NCBI GenBank assembly: GCA_001560915.1 | Contig: CP014214.1 | Location: 1,612,001-1,676,000, forward strand | From: a methanogenic archaeon ISO4-H5 | GTDB lineage: Archaea; Thermoplasmatota; Thermoplasmata; Methanomassiliicoccales; Methanomethylophilaceae | Length of the DNA: 64,000 nt | Direction of reading: 5' to 3' | Shown here: positions 39,787-64,000 of the stretch, in pieces | Numbering within the stretch: position 1 is the first letter of the stretch | How the letters are laid out: every line of letters starts with the position of its first letter | The notes under the pieces: model-generated | What the model saw: only the letters and a program-made list of their open reading frames with translations | Database searches by the model: none | What the model was told of the DNA's origin: nothing | Translations under genes and position numbers: made by a program

Positions 39787-42423
39787 ATGAACAAGACCGT
39801 CCCGATAGCCATCATAGTCGTCGCATCGTTGGCCGCAGCAGGAGTGGGCGTATTCATACTGATGAACAACAGCTCATCGAATGATTACTACACGCCGATA
39901 GATCCCGAGAACACGACTCCGTCCCAATGGTCCTATTTCGGCGGGGACGTTGGCAGCTTCGGAGTGACGGATGCGAAGACGCCGATAACCCAGGCCGATA
40001 TGAAACTGGCCTGGAAATACGACAAAGCGAAGCTCGATCAGGCCGGCGGCACATGGGAGGTCCCGAGTTCCGCCATTTGCGTGGAGGACAGCGTGTTCTT
40101 CTACAGCGGAATGGAAAAGTCCCTCTGCCGCTGTTCAGTGGTCACCGGAAAGGAGATCGCTAGCGTGAAATGCGAATCCTCTTCCGTATACAACATGGCC
40201 CTGGCCTACGGTGACGGGAAGATATTCATCTGCGCCTACGACAAGGCGAATTACGCGACGGTGCTGCATGCTTTCGACGCCAATACGCTGGATCATCTCT
40301 TCCAGAGCGTCCCTGTGGCCTCCGACGAGGTCCAGGGTACGATCACATACAACGACGGCAAGGTGTTCTTCGGAACATACAGCGGCGATTACGCCTGCTT
40401 CCGTACCGCCGACACGGACAAGGAGAGATCGGATGAGACCGTGAAACCCCTCTGGCTGCTGAAATCCGATGGCTGGTACAACGCCACGCCCGCATTCCTA
40501 GACGACAAGATCGTCATCGTCCAGAGGGGATTCGATGACGGCGGTGCCACCGCATATATGATAGATTCTGAGACTGGGGTGATCATCGACACCATCAAAT
40601 TCGACAAGGAATACTCGTCATCGGGCGCCACGGCCTACGAGGGCAGGGTGTACATCCCCCTCAGCAGGGTTATCGACAGAACGGTGGAACAGCCCAAGGC
40701 GGAGACACCGAAACACCTGATCATCTATTCCTACGAGGTCAGCGATTCCGGATTCGACAAACCGTCCATCAAATCATGGGAATCGAACTGCGCGGAAGGC
40801 AGTACCCAATCCATCCCCGTGATATGGAACGACACCATCTACATCGGAGGCGGAGGGCTGACGACCGGTTCCGACGAACCGTTCTGGATCATCGATATAG
40901 CACAGGACGGGTCGATGTCCACACGTGCCAGCTTCCCTGATCTGAAGACCAAGGGTACCGCTGCCATTACCACCGCCTACGCCACCAAGGAGAACGGTTA
41001 CGCCGTCTATATCTACCTCATGGAATACGGCCACGTAGCTCCCGGTGAGGATATCCTCAGCACCAAGGGATACGCGGACATCTACGTCATCAAAGACTCC
41101 AAGACCACGGGCACGGAGATCGTCTTCACCATTAGGCCCGAACCGGAACAGTTCTGCTTCCAGAGCTTCAGCATATCCAAGGACGGACATCTGCTCATCA
41201 AGAACGATTCAACCCTCTTCTGCTACGAATCCGCTTCCGCATATTCCGCATCGGACGTCAGCTCGGCGATATCCAGATTCGTGGCCATGAACGAGGATGG
41301 CAATGCGAATTACACCGACTATCTCAGGATAAAGGCAAGATACGACGCACTGGACCAGAGCGGGAAGGATGCCGTCGGCAACTATGCCGACCTGGAGAAA
41401 GCATGTGTGTCGCTCACCCTCAAGACAGCATCAGGTGACAAGGTGCTGACCGTTCCGAAGGGATGCCTGATGGACATCCCGTCCGTTTCGACCCCCAGCG
41501 GGAAGATCGTCACCGGCTGGGAATCCGGCGGATCTCCGTGGTGCTCCTTCAGCGATGCAGTGATATCCGATACCGTACTGACACCAGTCTACGCGAATGC
41601 CTTCACGGTCAAGGCGGACCCGGACAACGGGGAGTCCGCCGTCACCATGCAGGTCGCAGCAGGTTCCAAACTGCCTTACATCGATGAGCCCGTCCGTGCC
41701 GGATACAGGTTCGACGGGTGGATGACCGACTCCGAGGATATCTACCTCTCCGGTACAACGGCCGTGAACTCGGACCTCGACCTGTTCGCCAAATGGGTAA
41801 AGATAATCACCCTGAAGTTCGACACCGACGGCGGATCCGCCGTGAAAGGTACATACAAGGTCGAACAGGGCAAGGCGATCGGGAAGCTCCCGGTCACACT
41901 GAAGGCAGGATACTCGTTCGACGGATGGTACTTCAACGAGACTGAATACACCAAGGATACCGTATATCCGAACAGTTACGCTGTGACACTGAAGGCGAAA
42001 TGGATTAAGAACGACGAGATTACCAAGGATAACGGGAACGGCGTCAGCATCACCGGGCGGATGCCTGACGATGCCGCACTGACTGTCAACGTACCTCCGA
42101 GCACCACCGCCTCTTGCAAATCGGTCGTCGGCGAGTACAAGAAAGTTCACCCCGACGCCAATCCGGACAGCCTCAGGATTTATCTGAAGGGCGACGGCGT
42201 CCATCCCGACCTCACCTACACAGTGAAGATCGAGGTCGGATCCAGCCACAACGGCGAGACGTACGATGTATGCTATTTCGATGAGACCAAATCCGTCAGG
42301 GTCACAAGCACGGTCACCGACGGCAAACTGACATTCGAACTGAAAGGCGATGATGAAAGCAGAGGCGAGATTTCGATCACCTTCGCGACCGATTCCGCAT
42401 TAGGGATCAAGGACAGAGTGTGA
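39787..42423 (+). CDS. Membrane-anchored beta-propeller protein with InlB-type repeats (operon B, gene 1)
   Basis: Paralogue of 2409-5045 with the same length (878 residues) and domains: N-terminal membrane helix, PQQ/BamB-like propeller (about 35-480), three InlB-type repeats (about 545-745) and a C-terminal beta-domain. Most differences from copy A lie in the InlB and C-terminal parts; the propeller is nearly unchanged. The start MNKTVP follows GGAGG. The stop overlaps the next gene by 4 bp (GTGA). Confidence 0.85.
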   Translation: MNKTVPIAIIVVASLAAAGVGVFILMNNSSSNDYYTPIDPENTTPSQWSYFGGDVGSFGVTDAKTPITQADMKLAWKYDKAKLDQAGGTWEVPSSAICVEDSVFFYSGMEKSLCRCSVVTGKEIASVKCESSSVYNMALAYGDGKIFICAYDKANYATVLHAFDANTLDHLFQSVPVASDEVQGTITYNDGKVFFGTYSGDYACFRTADTDKERSDETVKPLWLLKSDGWYNATPAFLDDKIVIVQRGFDDGGATAYMIDSETGVIIDTIKFDKEYSSSGATAYEGRVYIPLSRVIDRTVEQPKAETPKHLIIYSYEVSDSGFDKPSIKSWESNCAEGSTQSIPVIWNDTIYIGGGGLTTGSDEPFWIIDIAQDGSMSTRASFPDLKTKGTAAITTAYATKENGYAVYIYLMEYGHVAPGEDILSTKGYADIYVIKDSKTTGTEIVFTIRPEPEQFCFQSFSISKDGHLLIKNDSTLFCYESASAYSASDVSSAISRFVAMNEDGNANYTDYLRIKARYDALDQSGKDAVGNYADLEKACVSLTLKTASGDKVLTVPKGCLMDIPSVSTPSGKIVTGWESGGSPWCSFSDAVISDTVLTPVYANAFTVKADPDNGESAVTMQVAAGSKLPYIDEPVRAGYRFDGWMTDSEDIYLSGTTAVNSDLDLFAKWVKIITLKFDTDGGSAVKGTYKVEQGKAIGKLPVTLKAGYSFDGWYFNETEYTKDTVYPNSYAVTLKAKWIKNDEITKDNGNGVSITGRMPDDAALTVNVPPSTTASCKSVVGEYKKVHPDANPDSLRIYLKGDGVHPDLTYTVKIEVGSSHNGETYDVCYFDETKSVRVTSTVTDGKLTFELKGDDESRGEISITFATDSALGIKDRV

Positions 42424-43496
42424 TTGAAATGGAAGGGAAGATGAAGATCACATTCATCGCCATAGCCATCGTGGCCACGGTCGCGGTCGCCGGCGTGGGT
42501 GTGTCCGTATTCATGAACAACGACGGCGGCTCTGCGGAGAGACCCACATACAATGCCGACGTCAACGTGAAGATAGATGACGAATACAAATCGTTCAGCG
42601 GAACGGGGAAGACCGTCAAGGAGATCCTCGAATCCGCTCTGGGAGACGATGTGAAAGTAGGTGCCAACGGCAACGTGTCATCCTACAAGGAACAGAAGAA
42701 CGACTCTGACCACTCCTGGGTAGTGTTCAGGTACCAGACGCCCAAGGGATGGGTGAACGCCACGGATGACAACCTGGCGGAAGGTGCCACGCTGGCACTG
42801 GAATTCTCGGAGAAGATCGTGGAGGGCGGGAAGACCACTTACAAGGTGCCGACCCTCGAAGTCAAGAAGACCGTGTGGTTCTTCATCCAGATCCCCGCAT
42901 TGGACGACATAAAGGAATGCGTGGAATCCGGTTCCTTCAAGGTCAGGGAGGACTCCAACGGAAATCCGCTGAAGAGCGTCGAGGACTGCTATAACGAACT
43001 GAAGGCCTGGACCGTCAATGCCGGACTGAACAACAACGACCTCAGGAACGGATTTTGGATCAAAGGTACCGGATCGTACATGAACGAGGCCCTGGCCAAC
43101 GGCCTATACGACACGTTCTTCTCCGGCGAGACCATGACGGTCGAGGATGACGGTGTGACCATCGACTACTGCATCAACGGCGATGTCATGCATTCCTCGC
43201 TGAAGAAGAGCGACCTCTACGGATGGTTCGTGGATTTCCTCGGATGGGGTGACACCCAGCTGAACAACGGTGATTGGACCTACTGGTCGCAGTATACGTA
43301 CAACCCCAACGCGAAGACCCTGGACGACGCACGCCAGTGGGAATACGACCAGTGGGCGCTCGGATTCTATGACATGGACCTGTACAAGTATGTCGCGCTG
43401 GTCCTGCAGACCACCCCGCAAAAGGACGGAGGGGACTTCGATGTCGATGTCCCCATCCCGACGCCTTCGGCGATCCCCGAGGAGCTCAAGGCATGA
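42420..43496 (+). CDS. DUF4430 (transcobalamin-like) secreted protein (operon B, gene 2)
   Basis: 358 residues, paralogue of 5042-6118. Signal/anchor helix (about 9-27), a first DUF4430 unit (about 40-140) and a second unit with WTYWSQY ... WALGFYD (about 285-330). The start is GTG 42420, overlapping the previous stop; ATG 42429 is the alternative shared with copy A. Likely binds a corrinoid-type ligand outside the membrane. Confidence 0.84.
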   Translation: MIEMEGKMKITFIAIAIVATVAVAGVGVSVFMNNDGGSAERPTYNADVNVKIDDEYKSFSGTGKTVKEILESALGDDVKVGANGNVSSYKEQKNDSDHSWVVFRYQTPKGWVNATDDNLAEGATLALEFSEKIVEGGKTTYKVPTLEVKKTVWFFIQIPALDDIKECVESGSFKVREDSNGNPLKSVEDCYNELKAWTVNAGLNNNDLRNGFWIKGTGSYMNEALANGLYDTFFSGETMTVEDDGVTIDYCINGDVMHSSLKKSDLYGWFVDFLGWGDTQLNNGDWTYWSQYTYNPNAKTLDDARQWEYDQWALGFYDMDLYKYVALVLQTTPQKDGGDFDVDVPIPTPSAIPEELKA

Positions 43497-44878
43497 AGAT
43501 CACCCGCACCAAGATCGCCCTGAGCGTCGTCGTGATGCTTGCCGTAGTGATACTCACCCCTGCCATGGGGCTGACCAACGCGGAGCGCGACGGAAGGAGC
43601 GGCGTGGTGCTGGACTTCGGTTACTGGAACACCGAATGGGTGACGATGGACTTCGGCGACGGGATGAACGGCTACCAGGCACTGGAGAAGGCCTGCGAGC
43701 TCAAGGGTTTCACGGTCACATACACGGACGATGCCCATACCCAGGTCTATTCGATCAACGACCAATCGAACCTCCAGGGAAAGAAATGGGGGATGTATAC
43801 CCTTCACGGAGGCGACTGGATCCCCTGTGACGATCCCTCCGGCATATCCCTGGGCAAGAACGAGATAATAACCTGGGCGAGAGCGAATGACTCGGAAGAT
43901 ATAGTTCCGGGCACCGACCAATCCGGGTTCTCGTACTACAGTTACGCGGACAACGGTTATTCCCTCAGGACCGGCGAGAAGCTCCGGGTGGTATCCCTGG
44001 CCCCGTCGGTGACCGAGACCATCTGCGCCATCGGCGGACTGGACTACATAGTCGGTACCGACCTGTACAGCAACTATCCCGAGGGAGTAACTCAGGCGAA
44101 GAATGACGGGAAGATCAAGAATGTCGGCGGATACTCGGACCCGAACTACGAATGGATAGTGAAGCTGGGTCCGGACGTGGTGTTCTGCGAAGGCGGCACC
44201 GGTGAGCACGTGGCCATGGCCGACAAACTCAGAAAATCCGGCATCGACTGCGTCGTGACATATGATGTCACGGACGTGGAGAAGCTGTACGACAACATCT
44301 GGATGGTTGCATCGGCGATGGGGCTCAGCGGGAACGCGAATTCGGTGATATCGGCATTCAGGGGCACGATGGATGCGGTCGCGGGAGTGATCGGATACCA
44401 GGCATCCGTCAGAACGTTCGTAGCCCTCTCTGCGGACCCTTCCCCTTGGACATCCGGATCCAATACCTTCGCATCCGACATAATCTCCAAGGTATCTGGA
44501 ACCAACGTGTTCGATTCGCAGTCGTCGTCTTGGTTCATGGTATCCAAGGAGCAGATCCACTCCAAACAGCCGCAGGTCATAATCATAGTACATGGCGGCG
44601 AGATAACGACACAGGAACAGTACGACCAGGTCATGGGCTGGATAGACCCCGTGTGGCAAGAGACTCCAGCGTACCGCAACGGCAACGTGTACCTGTTCAC
44701 CGGGAAGGCCGCTGATCTCCTGTCCAGGCCAGGGCCCAGATTGTGCGAGGCCGCGGAATTGCTCGGGAAGGCCCTGCACCCCGATGCCTTCCTGCAGAGG
44801 GACCCGCTGGATTCCATCCCGAAGTATCTGGGCAACGACTATGACATCTATCTGAAGTATCAGAGGGAGATAGCATGA
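43493..44878 (+). CDS. DUF4430-BtuF fusion substrate-binding protein (operon B, gene 3)
   Basis: 461 residues, same length and domains as 6115-7500: signal peptide, DUF4430-like domain (about 35-145) and Peripla_BP_2 domain (about 160-435) starting VVSLAPSVTETICAIGG. Only scattered conservative changes from copy A are seen in the binding domain, so both copies probably bind the same ligand. ATGA overlaps on both sides. Confidence 0.87.
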   Translation: MKITRTKIALSVVVMLAVVILTPAMGLTNAERDGRSGVVLDFGYWNTEWVTMDFGDGMNGYQALEKACELKGFTVTYTDDAHTQVYSINDQSNLQGKKWGMYTLHGGDWIPCDDPSGISLGKNEIITWARANDSEDIVPGTDQSGFSYYSYADNGYSLRTGEKLRVVSLAPSVTETICAIGGLDYIVGTDLYSNYPEGVTQAKNDGKIKNVGGYSDPNYEWIVKLGPDVVFCEGGTGEHVAMADKLRKSGIDCVVTYDVTDVEKLYDNIWMVASAMGLSGNANSVISAFRGTMDAVAGVIGYQASVRTFVALSADPSPWTSGSNTFASDIISKVSGTNVFDSQSSSWFMVSKEQIHSKQPQVIIIVHGGEITTQEQYDQVMGWIDPVWQETPAYRNGNVYLFTGKAADLLSRPGPRLCEAAELLGKALHPDAFLQRDPLDSIPKYLGNDYDIYLKYQREIA

Positions 44879-46722
44879 GGAGGGCCGCCATCATACTGAT
44901 CGCATTGCTGACGGCTCTGGCCGTGGTTCCCGTATCCTCTGCGGATTCTGCCGAGGACAGCGTGCTGGTGGATTTCGGGAACGGCTCATACCGCTGGTAT
45001 CCGAACAGCGGTGGATCCACTTTCGATGCAGTCCTGGATTCGTCAGTGGATTCCGGCACAGCGGATACGATCAGAAACGTGCACACCTCGGACTGCCATT
45101 GGAGACTGTTCGTCTGGAACGGCAGCTGGGAGGATAAGGGCACAGACCTTTCCGCAACATGCTCCGGGACCGTCGCGTTCGGATACTACCCGGAAGGGTT
45201 CGCACCCGTCTCCACCCCGGAGTACAGGGATTCCTGGACCACACTCGGCGGTTCGTCGACCGCGTCCAACATCTCCGTGTCCCACGGTCAGAAGAACCCG
45301 AAGGTCCCGGTGGAGTGGTACAACACATACACCACAGGATATGTCGACTCCGGATTGGTCGTGGCAGGGGATATGCTGTACCACACCACGGGAGGCGTCT
45401 ACGAGGGAGCAGGGGAGGATGCGGATGCCTGGGTCTACGGCCTGGACAGGTTCTCGGGTTCGGCAGTATGGAAGTACCACGGGACCAAGGGCGCAGGATA
45501 CGAGGTCACGACTCCGCTCATCGTCGGGGATTATCTCATCGTCACATTCACCTGCGGCGACGTCATCTGCTTCGACCGCCACACCGGGGCAGTGAAGGAT
45601 AAGATCACCGTGGACAACACCCCACCGCTGGACGGGGACGGGAACGTCGTATGGAACGGCAGGACCTTCTACACCGGAGGCACCACACCGGTATATGACT
45701 CCGGACGCATCTACTTCGGAACATCATCTGGAACCGTCAGATGCCTGGCACTTTCTTCCTCAGGGACATTCTCCGATGACTGGGAGTACGTGCCGCCATC
45801 GACAGTCGACGGCAGCCAATACACGGGCACCCGCGGATGCTTCTACTTCCATGCCCCGACAATCTATACCATAAGCGGACAGAGGATGCTGTTCATCGGG
45901 AACTACGACGGCTACGTACATGCCGTGAACGCGGATACGGGTAATCCCGTATGGGTGAAGAGGGTCATCGACATGACCGCCAACAACCGTGCCGCCCCTG
46001 GGACCCCTGGTTCCGCCGCATCGGTCTCGATGTCACCCGACGGATCGCACCTGCTGGTAGGGTGCACCGACGGTGCTCTTTTCTCGCTGGAAGGATACCT
46101 TCTGGCGCTCGATCCGCTCACAGGTAACGGACTCACCCGTTCGGACAGTTCCGAATGGAAACTGGACGGACTGTTCACATCCCCGGTGATTACCGCAGGC
46201 GGTTTCTACTCCTATGTGTCCCCGCTATCCGCAGGTTCGGACACCTTCCCGAAGGCCGGCGGCGGAGACGATACCGTCACCAATTCCGTCTATTTCTTCG
46301 ACTGGGACGGGAAGGTCGTCTGGAAGACGGGAGAGTATCAGATGATCAAAGGTGCGCTGACGATGGATGCCGACGGCATCCTGTACGGCACCGATTACTC
46401 CGCCGGGAGCTTCTGGCCCACCGGCGGCGCTCTGACCGCATGGGATTCCAGCGACGGTTCGGAGTTATGGAGGGTCCTGCTCTCACCCTATACCCAGGAC
46501 TCGTATTCCATGGTGCAGCCGACCGTCATCGACGGCAAGATCTACACCGGCAACGACTTCGGTGCAGTATACTGCCTGAGCGACGTGAAGGGCGAAGGCA
46601 CCGAAGAGGAGAGGGTGCAGGCGCTGCAGTCGGTGGGATTCGCCCACTGGTCGTGGTATCTCACCGTGGCTGTGGCCGCCGTAACGATAGCGGGATTCGC
46701 CATATTGTACAGGAGGGGCTGA
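44875..46722 (+). CDS. Membrane-anchored PQQ-like beta-propeller protein (operon B, gene 4)
   Basis: 615 residues, paralogue of 7497-9344: signal peptide, N-terminal beta-domain, propeller (about 130-575) and a C-terminal transmembrane helix with the YRRG tail. ATG 44875 overlaps the previous stop. No gap to the permease gene. Confidence 0.86.
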   Translation: MRRAAIILIALLTALAVVPVSSADSAEDSVLVDFGNGSYRWYPNSGGSTFDAVLDSSVDSGTADTIRNVHTSDCHWRLFVWNGSWEDKGTDLSATCSGTVAFGYYPEGFAPVSTPEYRDSWTTLGGSSTASNISVSHGQKNPKVPVEWYNTYTTGYVDSGLVVAGDMLYHTTGGVYEGAGEDADAWVYGLDRFSGSAVWKYHGTKGAGYEVTTPLIVGDYLIVTFTCGDVICFDRHTGAVKDKITVDNTPPLDGDGNVVWNGRTFYTGGTTPVYDSGRIYFGTSSGTVRCLALSSSGTFSDDWEYVPPSTVDGSQYTGTRGCFYFHAPTIYTISGQRMLFIGNYDGYVHAVNADTGNPVWVKRVIDMTANNRAAPGTPGSAASVSMSPDGSHLLVGCTDGALFSLEGYLLALDPLTGNGLTRSDSSEWKLDGLFTSPVITAGGFYSYVSPLSAGSDTFPKAGGGDDTVTNSVYFFDWDGKVVWKTGEYQMIKGALTMDADGILYGTDYSAGSFWPTGGALTAWDSSDGSELWRVLLSPYTQDSYSMVQPTVIDGKIYTGNDFGAVYCLSDVKGEGTEEERVQALQSVGFAHWSWYLTVAVAAVTIAGFAILYRRG

Positions 46723-47859
46723 ATGGCTGAAAAAGGAAAACTGTTCACTTCGCTGAAGAAGGGATACAAGGGACTGAAGGAGGACCTGGGTTCGCAGGAC
46801 GACTCCGAGATTGCAAGGAAGAAGAAGAGGTTCACTCTGATAGTGATATTCGGACTGGTCATGTCGGTGATCGCGTTCCTGATATCCATCTCGATATCAT
46901 CCGGAGGTGTTATCCCAGTATCCGAGGCGGTCTCGGCGCTGTTCTCCTCCATAGGCAAGGCCTTCAGCGGCGACAGGAACCTGGATATGATCGAGCTGTA
47001 CATCTACAACGCCAGACTCCCCAGGACCATCGCCGCCATCGCGGTGGGTGCCGGACTGGCCGTTGCGGGATGTATGTATCAGGCGATCATCCGCAACCCC
47101 CTTGTCGACCCATATATCACGGGAGTGTCCTCGGGTGCAGGGTGTCTCGCCATGGCCGCCACCGCACTTGGGTTCAGCATACCCTTCCTTGCTGACAACA
47201 CCCTGTACATCATCCCCGTGGTAGCGATCATCGGAGGTATCGTGGCATTCTTCATCACCATGACCGTCGCGGAGGGATCCGGCGGATCCTCCATCAACTA
47301 CATCCTTGCAGGAACCATCGTCGGTTTCGCGTTCTCCTCCGTGCAGACCATCTTCATGAGCATGGGGAAGGACAATCTGACGGACGTGATGTGGTGGCTG
47401 TACGGAAGCTTCGCCAACATCACCTGGGAGAACGCATGGATCATATTCATCCCCGCGATGGGCATTGCCATCGTGGCCATGATCTGGGCGAGGGAGTTCA
47501 ACCTGTACTCCATGGGTGAGGATCAGGCCGCCCAGCTCGGTCTCAACGTGAAGAGATTCAAGAGACTGACCATGATTACCGCATCCATCCTCACCGCACT
47601 CTGCGTTGCGTTTGTCGGTATCATCGGATTCGTCGGACTCGTTGTACCGCACGCGTGCCGTATGGCCCTCGGTAGCGACCACAGGCTAATTATGCCTGCA
47701 TCCGTGGTCATCGGTGCGATGCTTATGCTGTTCGCAGATCTGGTGGCGAGGACCGTGATGTCCCCTGCAGAACTGCCCGTGGGTGCCATCACGGCGATCA
47801 TCGGTACCCCGGTATTCGCTTACATGCTCATGAAGAGGGGGCGCAACTATGACGGATGA
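46723..47859 (+). CDS. FecCD/BtuC-type ABC transporter permease (operon B, gene 5)
   Basis: 378 residues and about ten membrane helices, with NPLVDPYITGVSSGAG and GLVVPHACR as in copy A. By eye about ten residues differ from copy A, most in the first 50 residues, while the DNA shows many silent changes. The ATPase gene starts 11 bp before its end. Confidence 0.93.
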   Translation: MAEKGKLFTSLKKGYKGLKEDLGSQDDSEIARKKKRFTLIVIFGLVMSVIAFLISISISSGGVIPVSEAVSALFSSIGKAFSGDRNLDMIELYIYNARLPRTIAAIAVGAGLAVAGCMYQAIIRNPLVDPYITGVSSGAGCLAMAATALGFSIPFLADNTLYIIPVVAIIGGIVAFFITMTVAEGSGGSSINYILAGTIVGFAFSSVQTIFMSMGKDNLTDVMWWLYGSFANITWENAWIIFIPAMGIAIVAMIWAREFNLYSMGEDQAAQLGLNVKRFKRLTMITASILTALCVAFVGIIGFVGLVVPHACRMALGSDHRLIMPASVVIGAMLMLFADLVARTVMSPAELPVGAITAIIGTPVFAYMLMKRGRNYDG

Positions 47860-48649
47860 AACTCCTCTCCTGAAGATTCAGGGACTTATCAAGGACTTCG
47901 GGGATTTCAGAGCCCTAAAGGGTATCGACCTGGAGTTCGGAAAGGGCCTCCTAGTAGGGCTCATCGGCCCCAACGGATGCGGCAAATCCACCATGATGAA
48001 GTGCATCAGCCGCCTGCATCCTCAGACATCAGGTACAATCGAAGTGGACGGGAAGAACGTCTCCGAGATGAAGCCTGCGGAGGTCGCCAAGATGGTGGCC
48101 ACCGTTCCCGCTGAAGCGGGACAGACCTTCGGCATAAGCGTCATGGACATGGTGATGCTCGGAAGGTATCCTTTCGTCGAGAAGATATGGTGGGAGAACC
48201 CCGAAGACGAGAGGGTCACCATCGAGGCAATGAAGACGTTCGGCATAGATCACCTCAGACGGAAACAGGTGGCGCTCTGCTCCTCCGGAGAAAGGCAGCG
48301 TGCACTGATCGCTAAAGCATACGTCCAGCAGCCCAAGCTCATGTTGGTCGACGAGCCCACGTCGCACCTCGATATGAAATACAAACTCCAGGTCATGGAA
48401 TACCTGCAGAAGATGGCCAGATCGGACATGACCGTCATAGTGGCCGAACACGACATCTCACTGATGGCAAGGTACTGCGACGTCTGTGTCATCATGAAGA
48501 AGGGCGAGATCGTGGCCGTGGGCGACCCCAAGGAGATCATCACCGAGGACCTGATACGCGACGTATACGACGTGGAGGCACGCGTCGGATTGGATGTGGA
48601 TGGGGAGATATACGTACTGCCCAAGAGGTACGTCGAGGGCAGCCTTTGA
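47849..48649 (+). CDS. BtuD/FepC-type ABC transporter ATPase (operon B, gene 6)
   Basis: 266 residues with Walker A GPNGCGKS, signature CSSGERQR, Walker B LMLVDEPTSHLD and the switch His in VAEHD. About a dozen residues differ from copy A. It ends the operon; the minus-strand Fic gene begins to converge on it 17 bp after its stop. Confidence 0.94.
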   Translation: MTDETPLLKIQGLIKDFGDFRALKGIDLEFGKGLLVGLIGPNGCGKSTMMKCISRLHPQTSGTIEVDGKNVSEMKPAEVAKMVATVPAEAGQTFGISVMDMVMLGRYPFVEKIWWENPEDERVTIEAMKTFGIDHLRRKQVALCSSGERQRALIAKAYVQQPKLMLVDEPTSHLDMKYKLQVMEYLQKMARSDMTVIVAEHDISLMARYCDVCVIMKKGEIVAVGDPKEIITEDLIRDVYDVEARVGLDVDGEIYVLPKRYVEGSL

Positions 48650-56375: not shown

Positions 56376-59300
56376 TTACTGCTTCCTTCCGACCACCTGC
56401 GGCAGCAGGATACCAAGACAGATCAGAACGATGACCGCGGTCATGACGAGCACGGCCACGGGGATCTCCTCCCCTGCGGGCGATTCGTCCACTATGGTGT
56501 AGATGGAGAAGTGGTCGAGGACCATGGTCATCTCCTCCTTCTCCGCATCGTAGTGCTGCTCTGCGACCCTCGTCCTGTTGCCGTCCCCGTCTACATAATA
56601 TGCCATGGGCGTCTTCCCGTCAACGGCGGCATGCTTCACGGTGACGATGACCTTTCCGCCGAGATCGCTTCCGATGCTCTGGCCGGCAGATGTGGCAGTG
56701 AGACTCACGACTGTGGATCCCGCTTCGATGACCTCGCGCTGGGCGGAGGTCATGGAGGACCTGTCGGCGATGGCGAACGAAAGCGTCACATCATCCTTGC
56801 CGGACATCGAGGACAGGACATCCTTCCCGAAGGTCATAGTGCCCTGGGTGGAGACCATCCTGAGGCTGGCGTTATCCTCGGCCATGCTACCGAAGGATTC
56901 CTTCGCGACGGATGCGGAGACGTCGGAGGTGTCCGAGGTGATCTCGATGACCCTGTCCTTCTCCGCTCCGACTGCATCGGCGACCGCAGCCTGCTGCTGC
57001 AGGGCGGCCTGGACGGATCCGTCGGAAACGACGTAGCTTCCGTCCTCTCCGTCCGCCTTCACGCTGGTTATGATCTCGGAGTCCGTCGATACGGCGGTGG
57101 TGTGCACCTTACCGTCGGCGGATATGGAGCCTGCGGAGACCTCGGTGACGGTCTTCCCGTCCTTCGTTGTCTCGGTGGTCCTGACGACGGTGCTGGAACC
57201 GTCGGCCTGTTTGACGGCGGTCTCCGAGACGCTCACGGTCGTCGTGTTGCCGGATGAATCCGTAACCGTGGACTCGGTCTGGGTCTCGGTGGTCCTGACG
57301 CCGTCGACGGTGGCGTCCGTCACAGTGGTGACGGTCTCTGTGGTCTGCAAGGTGTTGCCAGAGGCGTCCTTGGACGTCTCGGTGCTGGTGGTAACGGTGC
57401 CGTTCGCGGTCTGTTCGACTGTGGATACGATCTCCGTGGTCTGCAAGGTGTTGCCAGAGGCGTCCTTGGACGTCTCGGTGCTGGTGGTAACGGTGCCGTT
57501 CGCGGTCTGTTCGACTGTGAATACGGTCTCCGACGATGTGCCGTCGGAGTTGGTGGAAGTGCTCTCGGTCGTCTTCGAACCGTCAGCGTCCACTGTGGTG
57601 ACGGAACTGGTGGTCGACGAGGAACCGTCGGGGTTGGTCACCGTTGTGTTCTCGGTGATGGTGGTCGTTCCGTCCTCGTTCTCCTTGGTGGTTATCTCCG
57701 ATACGGTCTGGGTACCGTCGATGACGGATGTGGAGTCCGCGATGACCGTAGTGGAGCCGTCATCGTTCTCCTTCACCTCGATGGTGGTCTGGGAGCCGGA
57801 GTTGTCGAACTGCTCCGGGATTTCAGGCTGTTCGGGCGTGTCTGGCTCTTCGTCACCTGGATGTACGGCCTGCCCGCTCTCCTCGGTTATGCCGTAAAGG
57901 AGATAGAACTCGCCACCGCCGGTGTAGAATCCGAGGGACCACTGGTTGTATGATTCCTGTCCATCGACAATCTGGTACTGAATCCAGTATTTCCACAGAC
58001 CGCCGTCCATCTTCACGTCGCCGAGGCCGAAGATGTCATCCACCCAGTATCTTATGGTGTTATCTTCCTTGGTCCAGAAATTACAGGGAACCTTGGCATG
58101 GGTGAGCGCGGTTTCGAGGGCTTCGCCCGCGCTGCTTCCGATAGCTGTGAAGGTAATCCCGTTCCTGAGATCCGATGCGGTGTAACCGGATTCTCCGTAA
58201 TCCGCCTTATCCGCATCCTCCGCCATACGCAACGTGAAAACGTACTGTTTCGAACTAAGATCCTCGGTGACGGATACGGTAAACTGCATCTGTCCGAAGT
58301 ACATATCACCGGAAAGGTACACATTGATTGTTGTGGAACCGGTACCGAGTGCGGTGACGGTGGCTATACGTGAATCGTCGGAAACCGTGATGGATACGAT
58401 GTCGTCATCGACCGCTTCCCAGGTGAATATTACCCCTTCTGGGATGTCCCCGGTAACGGTGACCGTTCCGACATTCTCGTTTGTGTTGATGACGAGATCG
58501 AGGACATCAGGATTGACATCGAATGCCACCTCCTCCTTGACCGGTGCATCCGACCTCACATAGATCCTGTAGATGTGGTGCATGTCATTGGATTTGGACG
58601 CCATCGAAATGACGGAATTCCATTTGCCGTCGAAATAGGAATCGATGATCCAGTTGCCTTCGGTACCAGCGATCTCGATGATGTTCCCGGATGACGATAC
58701 AGTGTTCTGTATACGGGATTTGTTCAGTGCATCGCGGAATGCATCCAATGCGGTCTTTCCGTTGCCGGCAATCTTATACGATTCGTCACCGACAGTTATC
58801 TGGAAACTGTAAGGATTGGCTTCGGGCGTTCCATAGCAATAGACCGTTCCCGAATCCAGATACCACACGAGGTTTCCTTTCAGCGTCACCCTGACTGCCT
58901 GAGAACTGTACTGGCTTCCGGTCTTTGAGGTTACGAAATACCCGGTTGGTTCGGTCTTACCCTCATAATCCTCGAAGATGTATACTGCGTTAGGGGGATT
59001 ATAGGGCAGGATGTACACATAGATCTTGCCCGTAGTGCCGTAGTATCCGGAAGAGACGACGATAGAACCGTGAGTCGATACGGACAGATCCTTGTAGAAC
59101 AGGTACTCTGATTCAAGAGTGATCGCATTCACTGACGTCACACCTGAACTGCAGTTCAATACCATGGTCTCGAGTTTGTTCATATCCAGAACATGAAGAT
59201 GTGTACCGTTCACGTATCCTCTTCCGTTGAATATCACCAATTTGGAAAGAGAGGATGAATTGAACTCGATATCCACGATAGGACATTGGTCGCTCAATGT

Positions 59301-62300
59301 TCCGTCGGAATTCACAACGACCGCAGTGATCGTGGCATTCCGGAATGTTCCGTTATCGAACAGCCCCTGAGAATATGCTGTCATGAACAGTATGGCCCTT
59401 CCGTCTTTCGTATCACAGGAGAGCCAGCCGTCGTCGAGGAGCCTGCCGCTCTGCGAGGTCAGTTCTATGGTCGTCTTGGAACCTGTTGTCAGATCCACCG
59501 ATGCAAGGCCCCTATAATCCGAATTGGTCAGGGCTTCGATGAAGAACATGTGGCCGTCAGCGAATACGGGTGCCGATGTGGTACCATACATTCCGAACCA
59601 GGTACAACCCACACCGTTCGCCCACTGTCCGTTGGATACGAGGGAACCGGTGGATGCCTCCATCTTGTAGATCTTTCCTCCTGAAAGACCGTAGAAATAA
59701 CCGGAATCGTAGAATACGGCAGTGAACTCCTTTGGGGAATCATACTGTTTGACGAGATCCGCATCGTATACGGTGTGCGTGGCATAATCGTAGACCATGC
59801 CTCCGCCCACACCTAAGTAGAGATAATAGCTGACCAGCACCCTGGATTCTGCAGTGGCCAACAACTCTCCTGTATCCGCATCGTATTTGTAGAGAGTTGT
59901 TCCTGCACGCACATACACTGCATTATCCATGATTGCAGGGGTACTCGGGAATCCGGACCAGACACTCATCGACGCGTCTATCTTGTATTGCTTGCTCCAT
60001 TGAAGAACGACATCCTGCCCGTATTCGGGAGTCTTCACATCGACGACATCCGTGAGGACATTGGAAGGAGAGGTATAGCGGAGAAGCGGTTCGATGTAAT
60101 AGTCCCTGTCCAGCGTCAACTGGACACCAATACTCCCGCTGTCGACACCGTTGATTCTCCATCCGATGCATTCCCAGGATAAGCTGTCACAGTAACTGAC
60201 ATTTACAATCGAACCGCCATCAATAAGCTCACCGAAAGCTACAGGCTGGTTATCTTTTATGAGTTGAACAGCTTCGGGATGGGAAAGGACATTGACCAGA
60301 TACTTTCCATCGTTATACGCCCACTTTGCATAAAGCTGAGTATCGGAAAGGATCTTGTTGGTAAGGTCGAAACTCTGCGTGAAAGATGAATCCGAATACC
60401 AACCGTCGAAAGTGTAACCGGATTTGGTCGGAATACTCAACTGAAGAGCTTTCAACGTTCCGCCGTGCTGGACCTTCACGGTTCCGATTCCTTCTCCTCC
60501 CATGAGATCGAATGATACATCATGTAATATGTCCGAAGACAGCAACTGGATAGAGATGTGGATTTTTCTTACACCATCAGCAAGATGATGTTCGAACGAC
60601 CCCTCTGCACCCACATCTATCAGGTTGCCATCGACATATACTGCGACATCTCCGACCACAGACTCTACGTTATTCAATCTGAATGATAATGTGCCTGAAG
60701 TGATACCGATATCGGAAACGGCAACCGAATCCAGTGAGTTATCGACAAAGATGGAGGTATCCTGAACATAACCGAATGGTGTTGAGATGCTGTATGTTGT
60801 ACCATCATACTCGAACACACCGCCGTATTTGTCATTGTCACACTCCATCGTTTCGCTGGGGAGATAGAGGGTGGAGTACCTGGTAAGGGAATTGAATTTT
60901 TGGAGATACGTACTGTATGCGACTCCGTCTCCGGGGCAAATGCATAATTCATCCGAGGTTATGGATGTGCTTTCCACGGTAGCATCCGTCGAATTGAGAT
61001 ACACCAGATCTGCACCTCTGATCGAACGGGTTCCAAGGGTAATCTTTCCATCCGCAATGAGAAGTACCTGACCCGAATCGTTTATCGCAAACATCCCCAG
61101 CGTAATGTCTCCGCTTGAAACGAACACGACCTTTTCTGCAACTAAGTTCGAGTTCTGATCAAGTTCAATTGAAGGTGCCTCCCAATAGAACAACTCGATC
61201 TCCTTGGAGTTGGAAAATATGGAACCGTTCAATTGTGTTATCGTGTCGGGAATCCTGACTTCTTTGATTGCTAAGGGTATTGCAACAATCTCGTTGCGTT
61301 CTTTATTGAACAGGATGCCGCTGTAACCTGTATAACTCACGTTACCCTCACACAGGATTTCCGTCAAATCGACAGCTATATCGAATGCATCGTTTTCGAT
61401 AGAACTTACCGTTGATGGGAGGGAATATGACCTGACGGTGGGAAGGACGAATACCAATCTGTCCCCCCTGTAGACTGCATCCCCGTCGAACCGATATGGA
61501 GAACCCTGTCCGAATATGATTTTGCTCAAATTGGGACAGGATCCGAAAGATGTGGAGTTTATTTCCTGCACGCTGCCCGGGACCTCGATGGCTCTCAACC
61601 CGGTTTCGTAGAATGCCCTGCTGCCGATACTCTCCAGGGAATTGCCGTTGAACGATACCTCAACAAGACTTAAACAACCCTCAAAACAACTGTCCCCGAT
61701 GCTCCTTAAATCGGCAGGCAGAACAATTGACATCAACGAAGTTTCTGAAAAAGCGCCGCTTCCCAACGACTGAAGTGAACTGCTGTCCCTTATGCTGACA
61801 TCCGATAGATTGCTGCATCCTTTGAATGCATCGTTTCCGATGACTCCAACTGAGTCGGGGATGTTGATTGCAACAAGTGATGTACATCCTTCGAACGCGT
61901 CGTCTGGTATCGTTGTCAGTGTGGAATTAACAGGGAATGTGACCTGTATAAGATTTGTTTTGCCTTTGAACGCATCTGCATACAGACCTGAAATCGGGAC
62001 CGTGAACACAGCATTCTTCAGTTTGGGCGGAACGATGTATACCTTACCGTCCTTCAGAATCGCTCCACCGTCAGAAGAGTAATCCCCATCATTGCCCAGA
62101 ATAACAAACAATTCGAGATTGTCTGAATTGACAAATGCCTTCTGATTGATATTCAAAATACCGGACATCGTTACAGTCCTGAGGACACTCATCGATCCAA
62201 TCGACCCCTCTCCTAATGTAAAGGGTCCGTTTATGGACAACTCGGTCACTTCTGAACCACTAAATACCTTTGAATTCAGTGTAATCGAGGAATTGACACT

Positions 62301-63770
62301 GCAACTGATTGATGTAACGGGGGACCCGGCAAATGCCTCTTGATAAATCACGGCTGTACTGTCGATAAAGGTAACTTCCCTCAGATCTGGATTGTTTCTA
62401 AACGCATACTTCGATACTTCTTTAACTCCGGTTAATACAATCGATTCCAAATCATTGTCCTTGAATGCATTTTGACCTATTATCCCGACAGGTCCATTGA
62501 TGATGATTGATGTCAAACCTGTACCGCTAAAAGCATCACCATCAATGTTCAATGTTCCTTCATTTTGTATGGTTACAGTACGCAAAGCCTTACAGGCCAT
62601 AAATGCCCTCGGCGAGATCTCTGTCACATTGCTAGGCACAGTATAGGCGTCCGAAGATGCAACTGCAATGACCAGTGTATTCTCGCAATAAACCTGGTTA
62701 TCTATGACCCTGAAAGTTCCATTACCATTGACGGATGTTATCTGCTCCAGTTCTTCGCTATTGTAAAATGGATTTCCCGATAGTTCAGTCAGTGTAGCGA
62801 ATGGCAACGCGACACTCCTGAGATTGGTGCAACCCATAAACGCAAACCCGTCTATGGACCGCAAACAATACCCTTCTGAATCAATGCCTCTGACTTCGGC
62901 TGTCGTTATGAACCGGAGAGATGCACAACCACTGAACGCGTATGTCCCGATTGACTGCAGGGTGGTTGGTAAAGAAATCGATTCCAGACCACTCCTGCTG
63001 AATGAATAAACACCGATTGTCTTGAGACCTTCGCTCAGTGCTATTTCTTTCAGATTGGAAACTCCGTCAAATGCCCTGTCTGCAATGGCGTCCACCGTAT
63101 TTATCGTTCCATTGACCATTACCAGATTAGGCACGAATAGGTGGGCTTCCCCGGAAACAGTTGCCCCTGCCAAGTCCATATGGTTGTTTGTAGCGGTGAA
63201 TCTTAGAGAATATCTGTACAGCAGCACATCATTCTCATATACGGAATACGGAACAGTCACCGAGGATCCGCTCTTTGTAGACATCCCCTGGATTGCTGTT
63301 TTATCTCCGAAAAAGGTAGCTATCCCTTCGAAGGCCTGTCCTTCTTCTTCATATAGCACATCATCCGGCGATTGTTCAGTACCGTTTTTGAATTCCACAT
63401 GGAAGTTCACTGTAGGATGATCATCGTCTCCCGATAATTTGAAATGCAGTAATACCAAAGGTTCTCCGCTGACGATGTCCGTATAGTCCAAGAATGCGAT
63501 GACACCGCAATTGTCCGCCGGAATAACTCTGTACAACGCCGCAGAATCGACGAGTTTCGGGTTCCACTCTGCAGATTCCAATTCCAGATCGGTCTGAGAA
63601 TAGTTTATCTCGAAATAGGCGGACTTTACGTTTTCACAATCTCTTACAGTAATGGAATAATCCAGATAATTGTCGCCCGAAGCATCCGCTTCATTCGTAA
63701 AAATAGCGAGAAGAGACAATGACGCTATTACGACAATCAACAATGCAAAAATCGTTAATGCTCTCTTCAT
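56376..63770 (-). CDS. Giant surface protein: cohesin-like, LRR, InlB, propeller, DUF4430, Thr/Ser stalk, anchor
   Basis: This 2464-residue cell-surface protein has, in order: a signal peptide (1-30); a cohesin-like domain (about 33-155; YFEINYSQTDLELESAEW, then GVIAFLDYTD and LVLLHFKLSG); BspA-type LRRs (about 185-900); an InlB-type repeat (about 1080-1150, GYTFDGWY); a propeller-like part (about 1230-1640); a DUF4430-like domain (about 1645-1740); a BIG2-like domain (about 1750-1840); a second DUF4430 (about 1845-1980, LWKYWIQYQ and WSLGFYTGGG); a Thr/Ser-rich stalk with 32-residue repeats; a C-terminal beta region; and a transmembrane helix ending VVGRKQ. ATG 63770 follows GAGGGG and starts the signal peptide; an upstream TTG lies in a hairpin. 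A dockerin gene ends just upstream. Confidence 0.85.
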   Translation of the reverse strand: MKRALTIFALLIVVIASLSLLAIFTNEADASGDNYLDYSITVRDCENVKSAYFEINYSQTDLELESAEWNPKLVDSAALYRVIPADNCGVIAFLDYTDIVSGEPLVLLHFKLSGDDDHPTVNFHVEFKNGTEQSPDDVLYEEEGQAFEGIATFFGDKTAIQGMSTKSGSSVTVPYSVYENDVLLYRYSLRFTATNNHMDLAGATVSGEAHLFVPNLVMVNGTINTVDAIADRAFDGVSNLKEIALSEGLKTIGVYSFSRSGLESISLPTTLQSIGTYAFSGCASLRFITTAEVRGIDSEGYCLRSIDGFAFMGCTNLRSVALPFATLTELSGNPFYNSEELEQITSVNGNGTFRVIDNQVYCENTLVIAVASSDAYTVPSNVTEISPRAFMACKALRTVTIQNEGTLNIDGDAFSGTGLTSIIINGPVGIIGQNAFKDNDLESIVLTGVKEVSKYAFRNNPDLREVTFIDSTAVIYQEAFAGSPVTSISCSVNSSITLNSKVFSGSEVTELSINGPFTLGEGSIGSMSVLRTVTMSGILNINQKAFVNSDNLELFVILGNDGDYSSDGGAILKDGKVYIVPPKLKNAVFTVPISGLYADAFKGKTNLIQVTFPVNSTLTTIPDDAFEGCTSLVAINIPDSVGVIGNDAFKGCSNLSDVSIRDSSSLQSLGSGAFSETSLMSIVLPADLRSIGDSCFEGCLSLVEVSFNGNSLESIGSRAFYETGLRAIEVPGSVQEINSTSFGSCPNLSKIIFGQGSPYRFDGDAVYRGDRLVFVLPTVRSYSLPSTVSSIENDAFDIAVDLTEILCEGNVSYTGYSGILFNKERNEIVAIPLAIKEVRIPDTITQLNGSIFSNSKEIELFYWEAPSIELDQNSNLVAEKVVFVSSGDITLGMFAINDSGQVLLIADGKITLGTRSIRGADLVYLNSTDATVESTSITSDELCICPGDGVAYSTYLQKFNSLTRYSTLYLPSETMECDNDKYGGVFEYDGTTYSISTPFGYVQDTSIFVDNSLDSVAVSDIGITSGTLSFRLNNVESVVGDVAVYVDGNLIDVGAEGSFEHHLADGVRKIHISIQLLSSDILHDVSFDLMGGEGIGTVKVQHGGTLKALQLSIPTKSGYTFDGWYSDSSFTQSFDLTNKILSDTQLYAKWAYNDGKYLVNVLSHPEAVQLIKDNQPVAFGELIDGGSIVNVSYCDSLSWECIGWRINGVDSGSIGVQLTLDRDYYIEPLLRYTSPSNVLTDVVDVKTPEYGQDVVLQWSKQYKIDASMSVWSGFPSTPAIMDNAVYVRAGTTLYKYDADTGELLATAESRVLVSYYLYLGVGGGMVYDYATHTVYDADLVKQYDSPKEFTAVFYDSGYFYGLSGGKIYKMEASTGSLVSNGQWANGVGCTWFGMYGTTSAPVFADGHMFFIEALTNSDYRGLASVDLTTGSKTTIELTSQSGRLLDDGWLSCDTKDGRAILFMTAYSQGLFDNGTFRNATITAVVVNSDGTLSDQCPIVDIEFNSSSLSKLVIFNGRGYVNGTHLHVLDMNKLETMVLNCSSGVTSVNAITLESEYLFYKDLSVSTHGSIVVSSGYYGTTGKIYVYILPYNPPNAVYIFEDYEGKTEPTGYFVTSKTGSQYSSQAVRVTLKGNLVWYLDSGTVYCYGTPEANPYSFQITVGDESYKIAGNGKTALDAFRDALNKSRIQNTVSSSGNIIEIAGTEGNWIIDSYFDGKWNSVISMASKSNDMHHIYRIYVRSDAPVKEEVAFDVNPDVLDLVINTNENVGTVTVTGDIPEGVIFTWEAVDDDIVSITVSDDSRIATVTALGTGSTTINVYLSGDMYFGQMQFTVSVTEDLSSKQYVFTLRMAEDADKADYGESGYTASDLRNGITFTAIGSSAGEALETALTHAKVPCNFWTKEDNTIRYWVDDIFGLGDVKMDGGLWKYWIQYQIVDGQESYNQWSLGFYTGGGEFYLLYGITEESGQAVHPGDEEPDTPEQPEIPEQFDNSGSQTTIEVKENDDGSTTVIADSTSVIDGTQTVSEITTKENEDGTTTITENTTVTNPDGSSSTTSSVTTVDADGSKTTESTSTNSDGTSSETVFTVEQTANGTVTTSTETSKDASGNTLQTTEIVSTVEQTANGTVTTSTETSKDASGNTLQTTETVTTVTDATVDGVRTTETQTESTVTDSSGNTTTVSVSETAVKQADGSSTVVRTTETTKDGKTVTEVSAGSISADGKVHTTAVSTDSEIITSVKADGEDGSYVVSDGSVQAALQQQAAVADAVGAEKDRVIEITSDTSDVSASVAKESFGSMAEDNASLRMVSTQGTMTFGKDVLSSMSGKDDVTLSFAIADRSSMTSAQREVIEAGSTVVSLTATSAGQSIGSDLGGKVIVTVKHAAVDGKTPMAYYVDGDGNRTRVAEQHYDAEKEEMTMVLDHFSIYTIVDESPAGEEIPVAVLVMTAVIVLICLGILLPQVVGRKQ
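57328..57519 (-). repeat. Two 96-bp tandem repeats in the stalk of the giant protein
   Basis: Unit 1 starts at 57328 and unit 2 at 57424, with a few differences (GTGACGGTC versus GATACGATC). They match the repeats at 18735-18926, and the whole 3' part of the two genes is close to identical in places. Confidence 0.78.
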
Positions 63771-63796
63771 CGTCCCCTCTCTGATAATTAAAGAGA

Positions 63797-63817
63797 CCCC
63801 CAATCAAAGATTGGGGG
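63797..63817 (-). terminator. Hairpin between the dockerin gene and the giant gene
   Basis: CCCCCAATC-AAA-GATTGGGGG forms a perfect 9-bp stem; in the minus direction it is followed by TCTCTTTAATT. It stands 9 bp after the dockerin stop and probably ends that transcript, though partial read-through into the giant gene is possible. Confidence 0.65.
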
Positions 63818-63825
63818 ATATGGTT

Positions 63826-64000
63826 TCAGGCACCTCCGAGAGGGTATTGTGTGGGGTTGACAACATAATTCTTCAGATAGATCGCATCATCGGAATTGAC
63901 CACTCCATCATTGTTGTAGTCCACATTCTGTCCCTCGGGGATCGGGTGGGTCGATGCACGGAATGTATAAAGCAGCAAGTATACCGCATCATTCTCATCC
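63826..64000 (-). CDS. Dockerin-domain protein, C-terminal end only
   Basis: The minus strand is open from the window edge to TGA at 63826 and encodes 57 residues. They form a type I dockerin-like pair of calcium-loop repeats: DENDAVYLLLYTF (end of repeat 1) and DYNNDGVVNSDDAIYLKNY (repeat 2, with the D-x-N-x-D-G-x-V-N-x-x-D loop). The chain ends YPLGGA. The N-terminal, functional part of the protein lies outside the window. The giant gene directly downstream begins with a cohesin-like domain, the usual partner of dockerins. Confidence 0.82.
   Translation of the reverse strand, partial: DENDAVYLLLYTFRASTHPIPEGQNVDYNNDGVVNSDDAIYLKNYVVNPTQYPLGGA

Follow-up and report, generated by a model that had tools for sequence, protein, structure and literature searches.

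A probable non-cellulosomal cohesin–dockerin surface unit in a gut methanogen

Two neighbouring genes of the methanogenic archaeon ISO4-H5, read on the same strand, encode a protein with a cohesin and a dockerin and a giant surface protein that begins with a divergent cohesin; only the giant carries a membrane anchor. The window that we analysed, a 64,000-nucleotide stretch of this genome, contains the whole gene of the giant and the 3' end of its neighbour's. Because a predicted secreted protein and an anchored giant bear matching dockerin and cohesin modules, the giant probably fastens the secreted protein to the cell surface, the two forming a non-cellulosomal surface unit held together through the cohesin of the giant.

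An adaptor-like protein beside a giant surface protein

At its right edge the window cuts a gene (63826–64000, minus strand; whole gene G000:C1:1675826-1677313) that encodes a protein of 495 amino acids. Within the window lie 57 of its residues, with the second half of the dockerin, comprising the whole of loop 2 and the last four residues of loop 1. The signal peptide, the N-terminal domain, a cohesin (aa 302–397) and dockerin loop 1 lie to the right. The dockerin that a sequence-only reading had proposed for the end of this gene was confirmed in the full-length protein, in which residues 429–484 match PF00404 (E 1.5e-6; 28.7 bits against a curated cut-off of 22.9) and contain two canonical DxNxD...D calcium loops, D431–D442 and D465–D476, as in a genuine type I dockerin. 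That reading could not see that the protein also carries a cohesin of its own, which scored 27.5 bits with PF00963 (curated cut-off, 24.1) and, at 31.5 bits in a genome-wide search, was the sole PF00963 match of the genome. About four residues link cohesin to dockerin. Hydropathy predicts a signal peptide and no membrane anchor, and Pfam searches assigned the N-terminal domain to no known family and found no enzyme domain in the protein. By its predicted domains, this is a Coh-Doc 'adaptor' and not an enzyme: as in adaptor scaffoldins, cohesin and dockerin share one unanchored chain, whose secretion is judged from hydropathy alone.

The adjoining giant (56376–63770, minus strand, with an ATG start at 63770) is 2,464 amino acids long. 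A hydrophobic segment or signal peptide (aa 1–30; 63681–63770; by hydropathy) is followed by the divergent cohesin (aa ~31–150; 63321–63680), a BspA-type LRR_5 region of approximate extent (aa ~225–860; 61191–63098; Pfam E 1e-82), an InlB or Listeria–Bacteroides repeat (Flg_new, PF09479; aa 1084–1149; 60324–60521; E 1e-13) and a C-terminal membrane helix (aa 2438–2456; 56403–56459; hydropathy 3.18). The leucine-rich, InlB and anchor assignments of the earlier reading were thus upheld. A PQQ/BamB-type propeller-like region that it had overlooked (aa ~1274–1461; 59388–59951) matched PF13360 at E 1.4e-5, just under the curated cut-off, when searched as an isolated piece. A perfect 9-bp hairpin (63797–63817), terminator-like on either strand, lies in the 55 bp that separate the two genes and makes their co-transcription uncertain.

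The window also holds a B12/siderophore-type ABC cluster, 8–24 kb from the pair, that shares one module with the giant (aa 1861–1988; 57807–58190). This module had been named DUF4430, a family for which Pfam gave no match in the giant even at E 10, nor in the upstream 343-aa protein; what stands is its homology to a 351-aa protein encoded in the ABC cluster of the window (29% identity, E 1.6e-9). The earlier picture of a secreted binder or enzyme docked beside a cofactor-capture protein survives in part: an anchored, cohesin-bearing adhesin does adjoin an unanchored dockerin protein, but the latter is the enzyme-free adaptor, and none of the results connects docking with cofactor uptake.

Several comparisons indicate that the giant begins with a divergent cohesin homologous to that of its neighbour. 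When the whole genome was searched in six frames with the adaptor cohesin, the N-terminus of the giant was the only other significant match (E 6.4e-4, 34% identity), and with a cohesin profile it scored 14.0 bits against 9.5 for the best shuffle (n=5,000, of which 4,402 gave a score). The domain is far more diverged than the adaptor cohesin and may have lost its ability to bind. Genome-wide and protein Pfam searches gave no PF00963 match for it and thus none over the curated cut-off; NCBIfam and a PDB sequence search gave no match either, and an order-wide search with the giant returned matches to its leucine-rich part only. Aligned by hhalign with an archaeal cohesin profile, A1, which itself matches the solved cohesins of Archaeoglobus fulgidus (2xdh, E 7.5e-10) and of cellulosomes, it gave only a P value of 0.004 and a probability of 9%. 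An AF2 model built on an alignment of cohesin relatives, which biases the model, reached a pLDDT of 69, and all 50 of its top 50 PDB matches were cohesins, 2xdh first; from the single sequence, the pLDDT was 40 and the model uninformative. The fold evidence is weak for these reasons, and it pointed to no fold other than a cohesin. The cohesin-like start proposed earlier is therefore retained, on a score above shuffles and the match to the neighbour, as a domain below the Pfam threshold.

Recurrence in relatives and comparison with known systems

The arrangement recurs. The order of a coh-doc gene followed by a coh-LRR_5 gene is also found at G041:C235, G041:C306 and G083:C103, so that a Coh-Doc protein precedes a cohesin-bearing surface protein at four loci of this and related methanogens; it does so in gut Clostridia as well. 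Another cohesin gene directly follows in 8 of 24 coh-doc genes examined, 4/11 archaeal (after removal of one duplicate) and 4/13 bacterial. Relatives also carry dedicated anchors of the form coh-Big2n-TM. A PF00963 cohesin was detected in only 15 of 147 relatives' genomes, and the docking unit is therefore sporadic. Strong dockerins (E<=1e-10) occur in 11 genomes, all of them among these 15 (hypergeometric 1e-13, uncorrected for kinship), whereas dockerin matches of any strength occur in 82 of the 147, so that most dockerin-positive genomes lack a detected cohesin. The literature that we searched contained no description of cohesin–dockerin in the order Methanomassiliicoccales.

A cellulosome was considered and rejected: the genome has no multi-cohesin scaffoldin (its one PF00963 match is the adaptor's) and no dockerin-bearing polysaccharide-degrading enzyme, none of its six dockerin proteins having a glycoside hydrolase match in Pfam. 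The suggestion that the anchored partner is a giant adhesin and not a cellulase scaffold agrees with the anchored, cohesin-bearing adhesin beside a dockerin protein seen here and in relatives.

The closest precedents of the docking pair are in A. fulgidus, ANME archaea and cellulosomal adaptor scaffoldins. A. fulgidus, a non-cellulolytic archaeon, has two cohesins and one dedicated dockerin in AF2375/AF2376, with one protein bearing both modules. The present neighbouring genes likewise provide two cohesins and one dedicated dockerin, if five pairs on substrate-binding-type proteins are set apart, and profile A1 and the model of the giant both match the A. fulgidus cohesin; here, however, the host is a gut methanogen, the second cohesin sits on a 2,464-aa LRR/InlB/propeller membrane adhesin, and binding is predicted. 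Cellulosomal adaptor scaffoldins (for example, of the R. flavefaciens ScaC/ScaH type) also combine cohesin and dockerin in one unanchored chain, bridging to another scaffoldin (PMC4959524), whereas our adaptor has one cohesin only, its anchor is an adhesin and no dockerin-bearing glycoside hydrolase was found. ANME archaea resemble our genome in that their Coh-Doc proteins are non-cellulosomal and ABC substrate-binding proteins bear dockerins (PMC9012536), but their proteins have up to five cohesins, compared with one Coh-Doc protein and one anchored cohesin here. Gut Clostridia clusters (L139, L152, L127 and L161) share the gene order but are bacterial and have other anchors; L139 (coh-TM, coh-coh-doc, coh...TM and transglutaminase-LRR-doc) includes both an anchor and a dockerin-bearing leucine-rich cargo. 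A few other archaea are known to use the cellulosome connector for purposes other than cellulose, and such use is common in gut Clostridia too.

Possible partners of the dockerin

In the docking model that we favour, the 495-aa protein would be exported without an anchor of its own, and its C-terminal dockerin would plug into the cohesin that the giant carries at its outer end, displaying the N-terminal domain of the adaptor on the cell surface. The pair would work as a one-cohesin adaptor and an anchoring scaffoldin whose anchor is a BspA-LRR adhesin, with no plant-polymer enzyme. The dockerin might also enter the cohesin of another adaptor copy in trans; binding in trans rather than in cis is suggested by the short linker.

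Since the dockerin protein is an adaptor without an enzyme domain, self-chaining is no less possible than simple docking. Taken alone, self-chaining would give head-to-tail assemblies and leave the domain of the giant as a relic or mere N-terminal spacer, an explanation to which we give a modest chance. The linker is awkwardly short for binding in cis, relatives and Clostridia often have coh-doc proteins with no further cohesin gene adjoining, and the cohesin of the giant is much the more diverged. That domain is nevertheless still recognisable as a cohesin, coh-doc and cohesin gene pairs recur, and an unanchored chain would be lost from the cell.

The partners could instead be modules on neighbouring gut Clostridia. 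The adaptor coh-doc scores higher against rumen Clostridia, at 74.9 bits and 35% over 185 aa, than against other archaea, at 63 bits; its dockerin is 43–52% identical to the clostridial ones, and in the tree it groups with Clostridia, apart from the archaeal clade (100/99), with 0% of bootstrap trees uniting the archaea. A single archaeal clade was compatible with the data in an AU test (p 0.22), and a separate bacterial origin of the module is accordingly favoured by the tree and not established. Even so, ancestry does not reveal partner choice, and cohesin–dockerin pairs are usually species-selective. We regard as improbable that these modules link the methanogen to Clostridia rather than to each other, and equally so that a Clostridia-type module was acquired and still fits rumen partners as an inter-domain tether.

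Slightly less credible still is that the giant serves as a receptor platform for substrate-binding proteins of metal/corrinoid ABC transporters. Five proteins of the genome combine an N-terminal membrane segment with a PF00404-like EF pair, four of the five with a mostly weak Peripla_BP_2 match; such matches are more numerous in cohesin-bearing genomes of one genus (uncorrected for kinship and genome size), and the ANME dockerins on ABC binding proteins offer a parallel (PMC9012536). These five proteins are already membrane-anchored, however, in chains of up to three binding modules each module has an EF pair of its own (L244), as a structural companion domain would, and dockerin matches far outnumber cohesins across genomes. 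That the EF-hand pair and beta-sandwich are merely calcium-stabilised modules ending a surface protein, with no docking, is very unlikely: many dockerin-like pairs in this order occur without a cohesin, but strong C-terminal or cohesin-linked dockerins track cohesins, and archaeal cohesin–dockerin bonds are stated as verified (PMC9012536).

Implications for rumen methanogens

Methanomassiliicoccales are important rumen methane producers, and we know of no means by which they hold on to partners or surfaces. On the cell surface of this gut methanogen, the docking pair may serve in adhesion or in binding. It is compact, two genes with one dockerin and two cohesins, and can be examined directly in binding assays; confirmed binding would place archaeal cohesin–dockerin modules on a concrete, anchored host protein. 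Gut Clostridia have a similar layout, which raises the testable question of whether bacteria and methanogens have exchanged modules or even bind one another; a tether, if real, would mean an archaeon physically plugged onto bacteria that produce hydrogen or methyl compounds.

A Coh-Doc protein beside a giant surface protein

As the sequence-only reading had proposed, the gene cut by the window's right edge ends in a dockerin. Completed from the genome sequence (a single chromosome of 1,937,883 bp, in which bases 1612001-1676000 make up the window), it encodes a 495-aa protein, the adaptor, with a hydrophobic N terminus and no further membrane segment. A cohesin at residues 302-397 and a type I dockerin at 429-484 both scored above the curated Pfam cut-offs, which makes the adaptor a Coh-Doc protein. 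Of the two calcium loops that had been described, loop 2 lies within the window, together with just the final four residues of loop 1. It had been suggested that the docked protein might be a binder or enzyme, but no enzyme is attached; the completed gene carries its own cohesin, and its N-terminal ~290 residues matched no family.

The neighbouring gene runs from an ATG at 63770 to 56376 on the minus strand and encodes the 2464-aa giant. Pfam identified BspA-type LRR_5 and an InlB/Flg_new repeat, and a hydrophobic N-terminal segment and a strong C-terminal membrane helix frame the protein, in line with the LRR and InlB modules and membrane anchor expected of it; a propeller-like stretch weakly matched PQQ_2. 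The 55-bp gap between the two genes contains a perfect 9-bp hairpin, CCCCCAATC-TTT-GATTGGGGG (63797-63817), which is terminator-like on both strands.

The N-terminal domain of the giant

The claim that the giant starts with a cohesin-like domain found no support in Pfam searches, PF00963 included, or in PDB sequence searches. By contrast, a profile of 27 relatives' cohesins scored 14.0 bits against this region, compared with 9.5 bits for the best of 5000 shuffles (4402 scored); nothing else in the long frames of the window scored higher. The cleanest evidence, because it is independent of alignment choice, came from searching the whole genome in six frames with the adaptor cohesin, which returned itself, then the giant N terminus (E 6.4e-4, 34% identity) and nothing significant beyond these. 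An AF2 model built with 21 aligned cohesin relatives, an alignment that favours a cohesin answer, reached pLDDT 69 and pTM 0.65, and its 50 best PDB matches were all cohesins, with Archaeoglobus fulgidus 2xdh on top; without an alignment, pLDDT was 40 and the model unusable. Taken together, these data make it very probable that the giant begins with a divergent cohesin.

Cohesins and dockerins in relatives and gut Clostridia

Across 147 genomes of Methanomassiliicoccales, PF00963 was found in 15 and PF00404 in 82. We kept two kinds of dockerin apart. The 11 genomes with strong dockerins (E<=1e-10) all carry a cohesin as well, and the strong dockerins examined lay next to a cohesin or at the C terminus. 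The second kind, weaker pairs behind a membrane segment in ABC-type substrate-binding proteins, sometimes with Big_2 domains, occurred mostly in genomes without a detected cohesin and was therefore not treated as cargo. Dockerins on ABC binding proteins have already been noted in ANME archaea (PMC9012536). Loci L244 (1627-5598), L239 and L242 encode single chains combining two or three dockerin-like pairs with substrate-binding modules, some on Big_2 stalks; the L244 chain has three such modules with one EF pair each. The genome of ISO4-H5 itself encodes five binding-protein-like proteins (L003-L007) with an N-terminal membrane segment and a dockerin-like EF pair, the weakest matches falling below the Pfam protein cut-off.

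Another cohesin gene directly followed the coh-doc gene in 8 of the 24 archaeal and bacterial cases examined. On two contigs of relatives (G041:C235 and G083:C103) it was a cohesin-LRR_5 gene on the same strand, and on G041:C306 it was truncated by the contig edge. Separate anchors with a cohesin, Big_2 repeats and a C-terminal membrane helix were found in G079, G083, G090, G091 and G092. G015, a more distant relative, encodes two proteins with C-terminal dockerins next to a cohesin protein that has a membrane helix.

Gut Clostridia share this layout. A goat-cecum Oscillospiraceae locus (L139:1942-11435) encodes in a row a cohesin-TM protein, a cohesin-cohesin-dockerin protein, a second TM-bearing cohesin protein and a transglutaminase-LRR-dockerin protein, and is a bacterial non-cellulosomal counterpart; at L152 and L127, coh-doc is followed by a cohesin-bearing protein. 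In rumen Ruminococcus sp. (L161:2645-5558), the source of the closest bacterial relative of the adaptor in an initial BLAST search, a CHAP-cohesin-dockerin protein precedes a second Coh-Doc protein.

The adaptor module resembles Clostridia (74.9 bits, 35% over 185 aa) more than other archaea (63 bits), and several clostridial dockerins share 43-52% identity with its own. In a didomain tree, the 11 other archaeal Coh-Doc sequences formed a clade (100/99) that excluded the adaptor. Separate acquisition of the adaptor module is likely, though forcing all archaea together was not rejected (AU p 0.22) and the adaptor branch is long. Two DDE transposase genes (PF01609; L008:10803-14709) upstream of the surface locus are consistent with gene mobility.

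A possible docking unit at the cell surface

Judging from the terminal hydrophobic segments, both proteins would be exported, the adaptor anchorless and the giant anchored, holding its cohesin outside the cell at the end remote from the membrane. On the simplest reading, the adaptor dockerin would plug into this cohesin and display the adaptor's N-terminal domain. Closure of the adaptor's cohesin and dockerin in cis is unlikely because only about four residues separate them, so chaining with further copies is possible.

Non-cellulosomal cohesin-dockerin systems are already known in archaea, and binding is established for A. fulgidus (PMC9012536), whose pair has been employed for surface display (PMC9705933). 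Our literature search found no description of such a unit for Methanomassiliicoccales. Three features are new: the use of an LRR/InlB/propeller adhesin as anchor, the recurrence of the paired genes among gut Methanomassiliicoccales, and the closely similar arrangement seen in gut Clostridia.

The giant has one module in common with a 351-aa protein, without a Pfam family, of a B12/siderophore-type ABC uptake cluster (39787-48649), which also encodes a PQQ/InlB protein, a Peripla_BP_2 binding protein, a PQQ propeller with a membrane helix, a FecCD permease and an ATPase. Adhesin-like genes adjoining BtuCDF have been reported in Methanomassiliicoccales (PMC10804542). The locus may play a part in capture.
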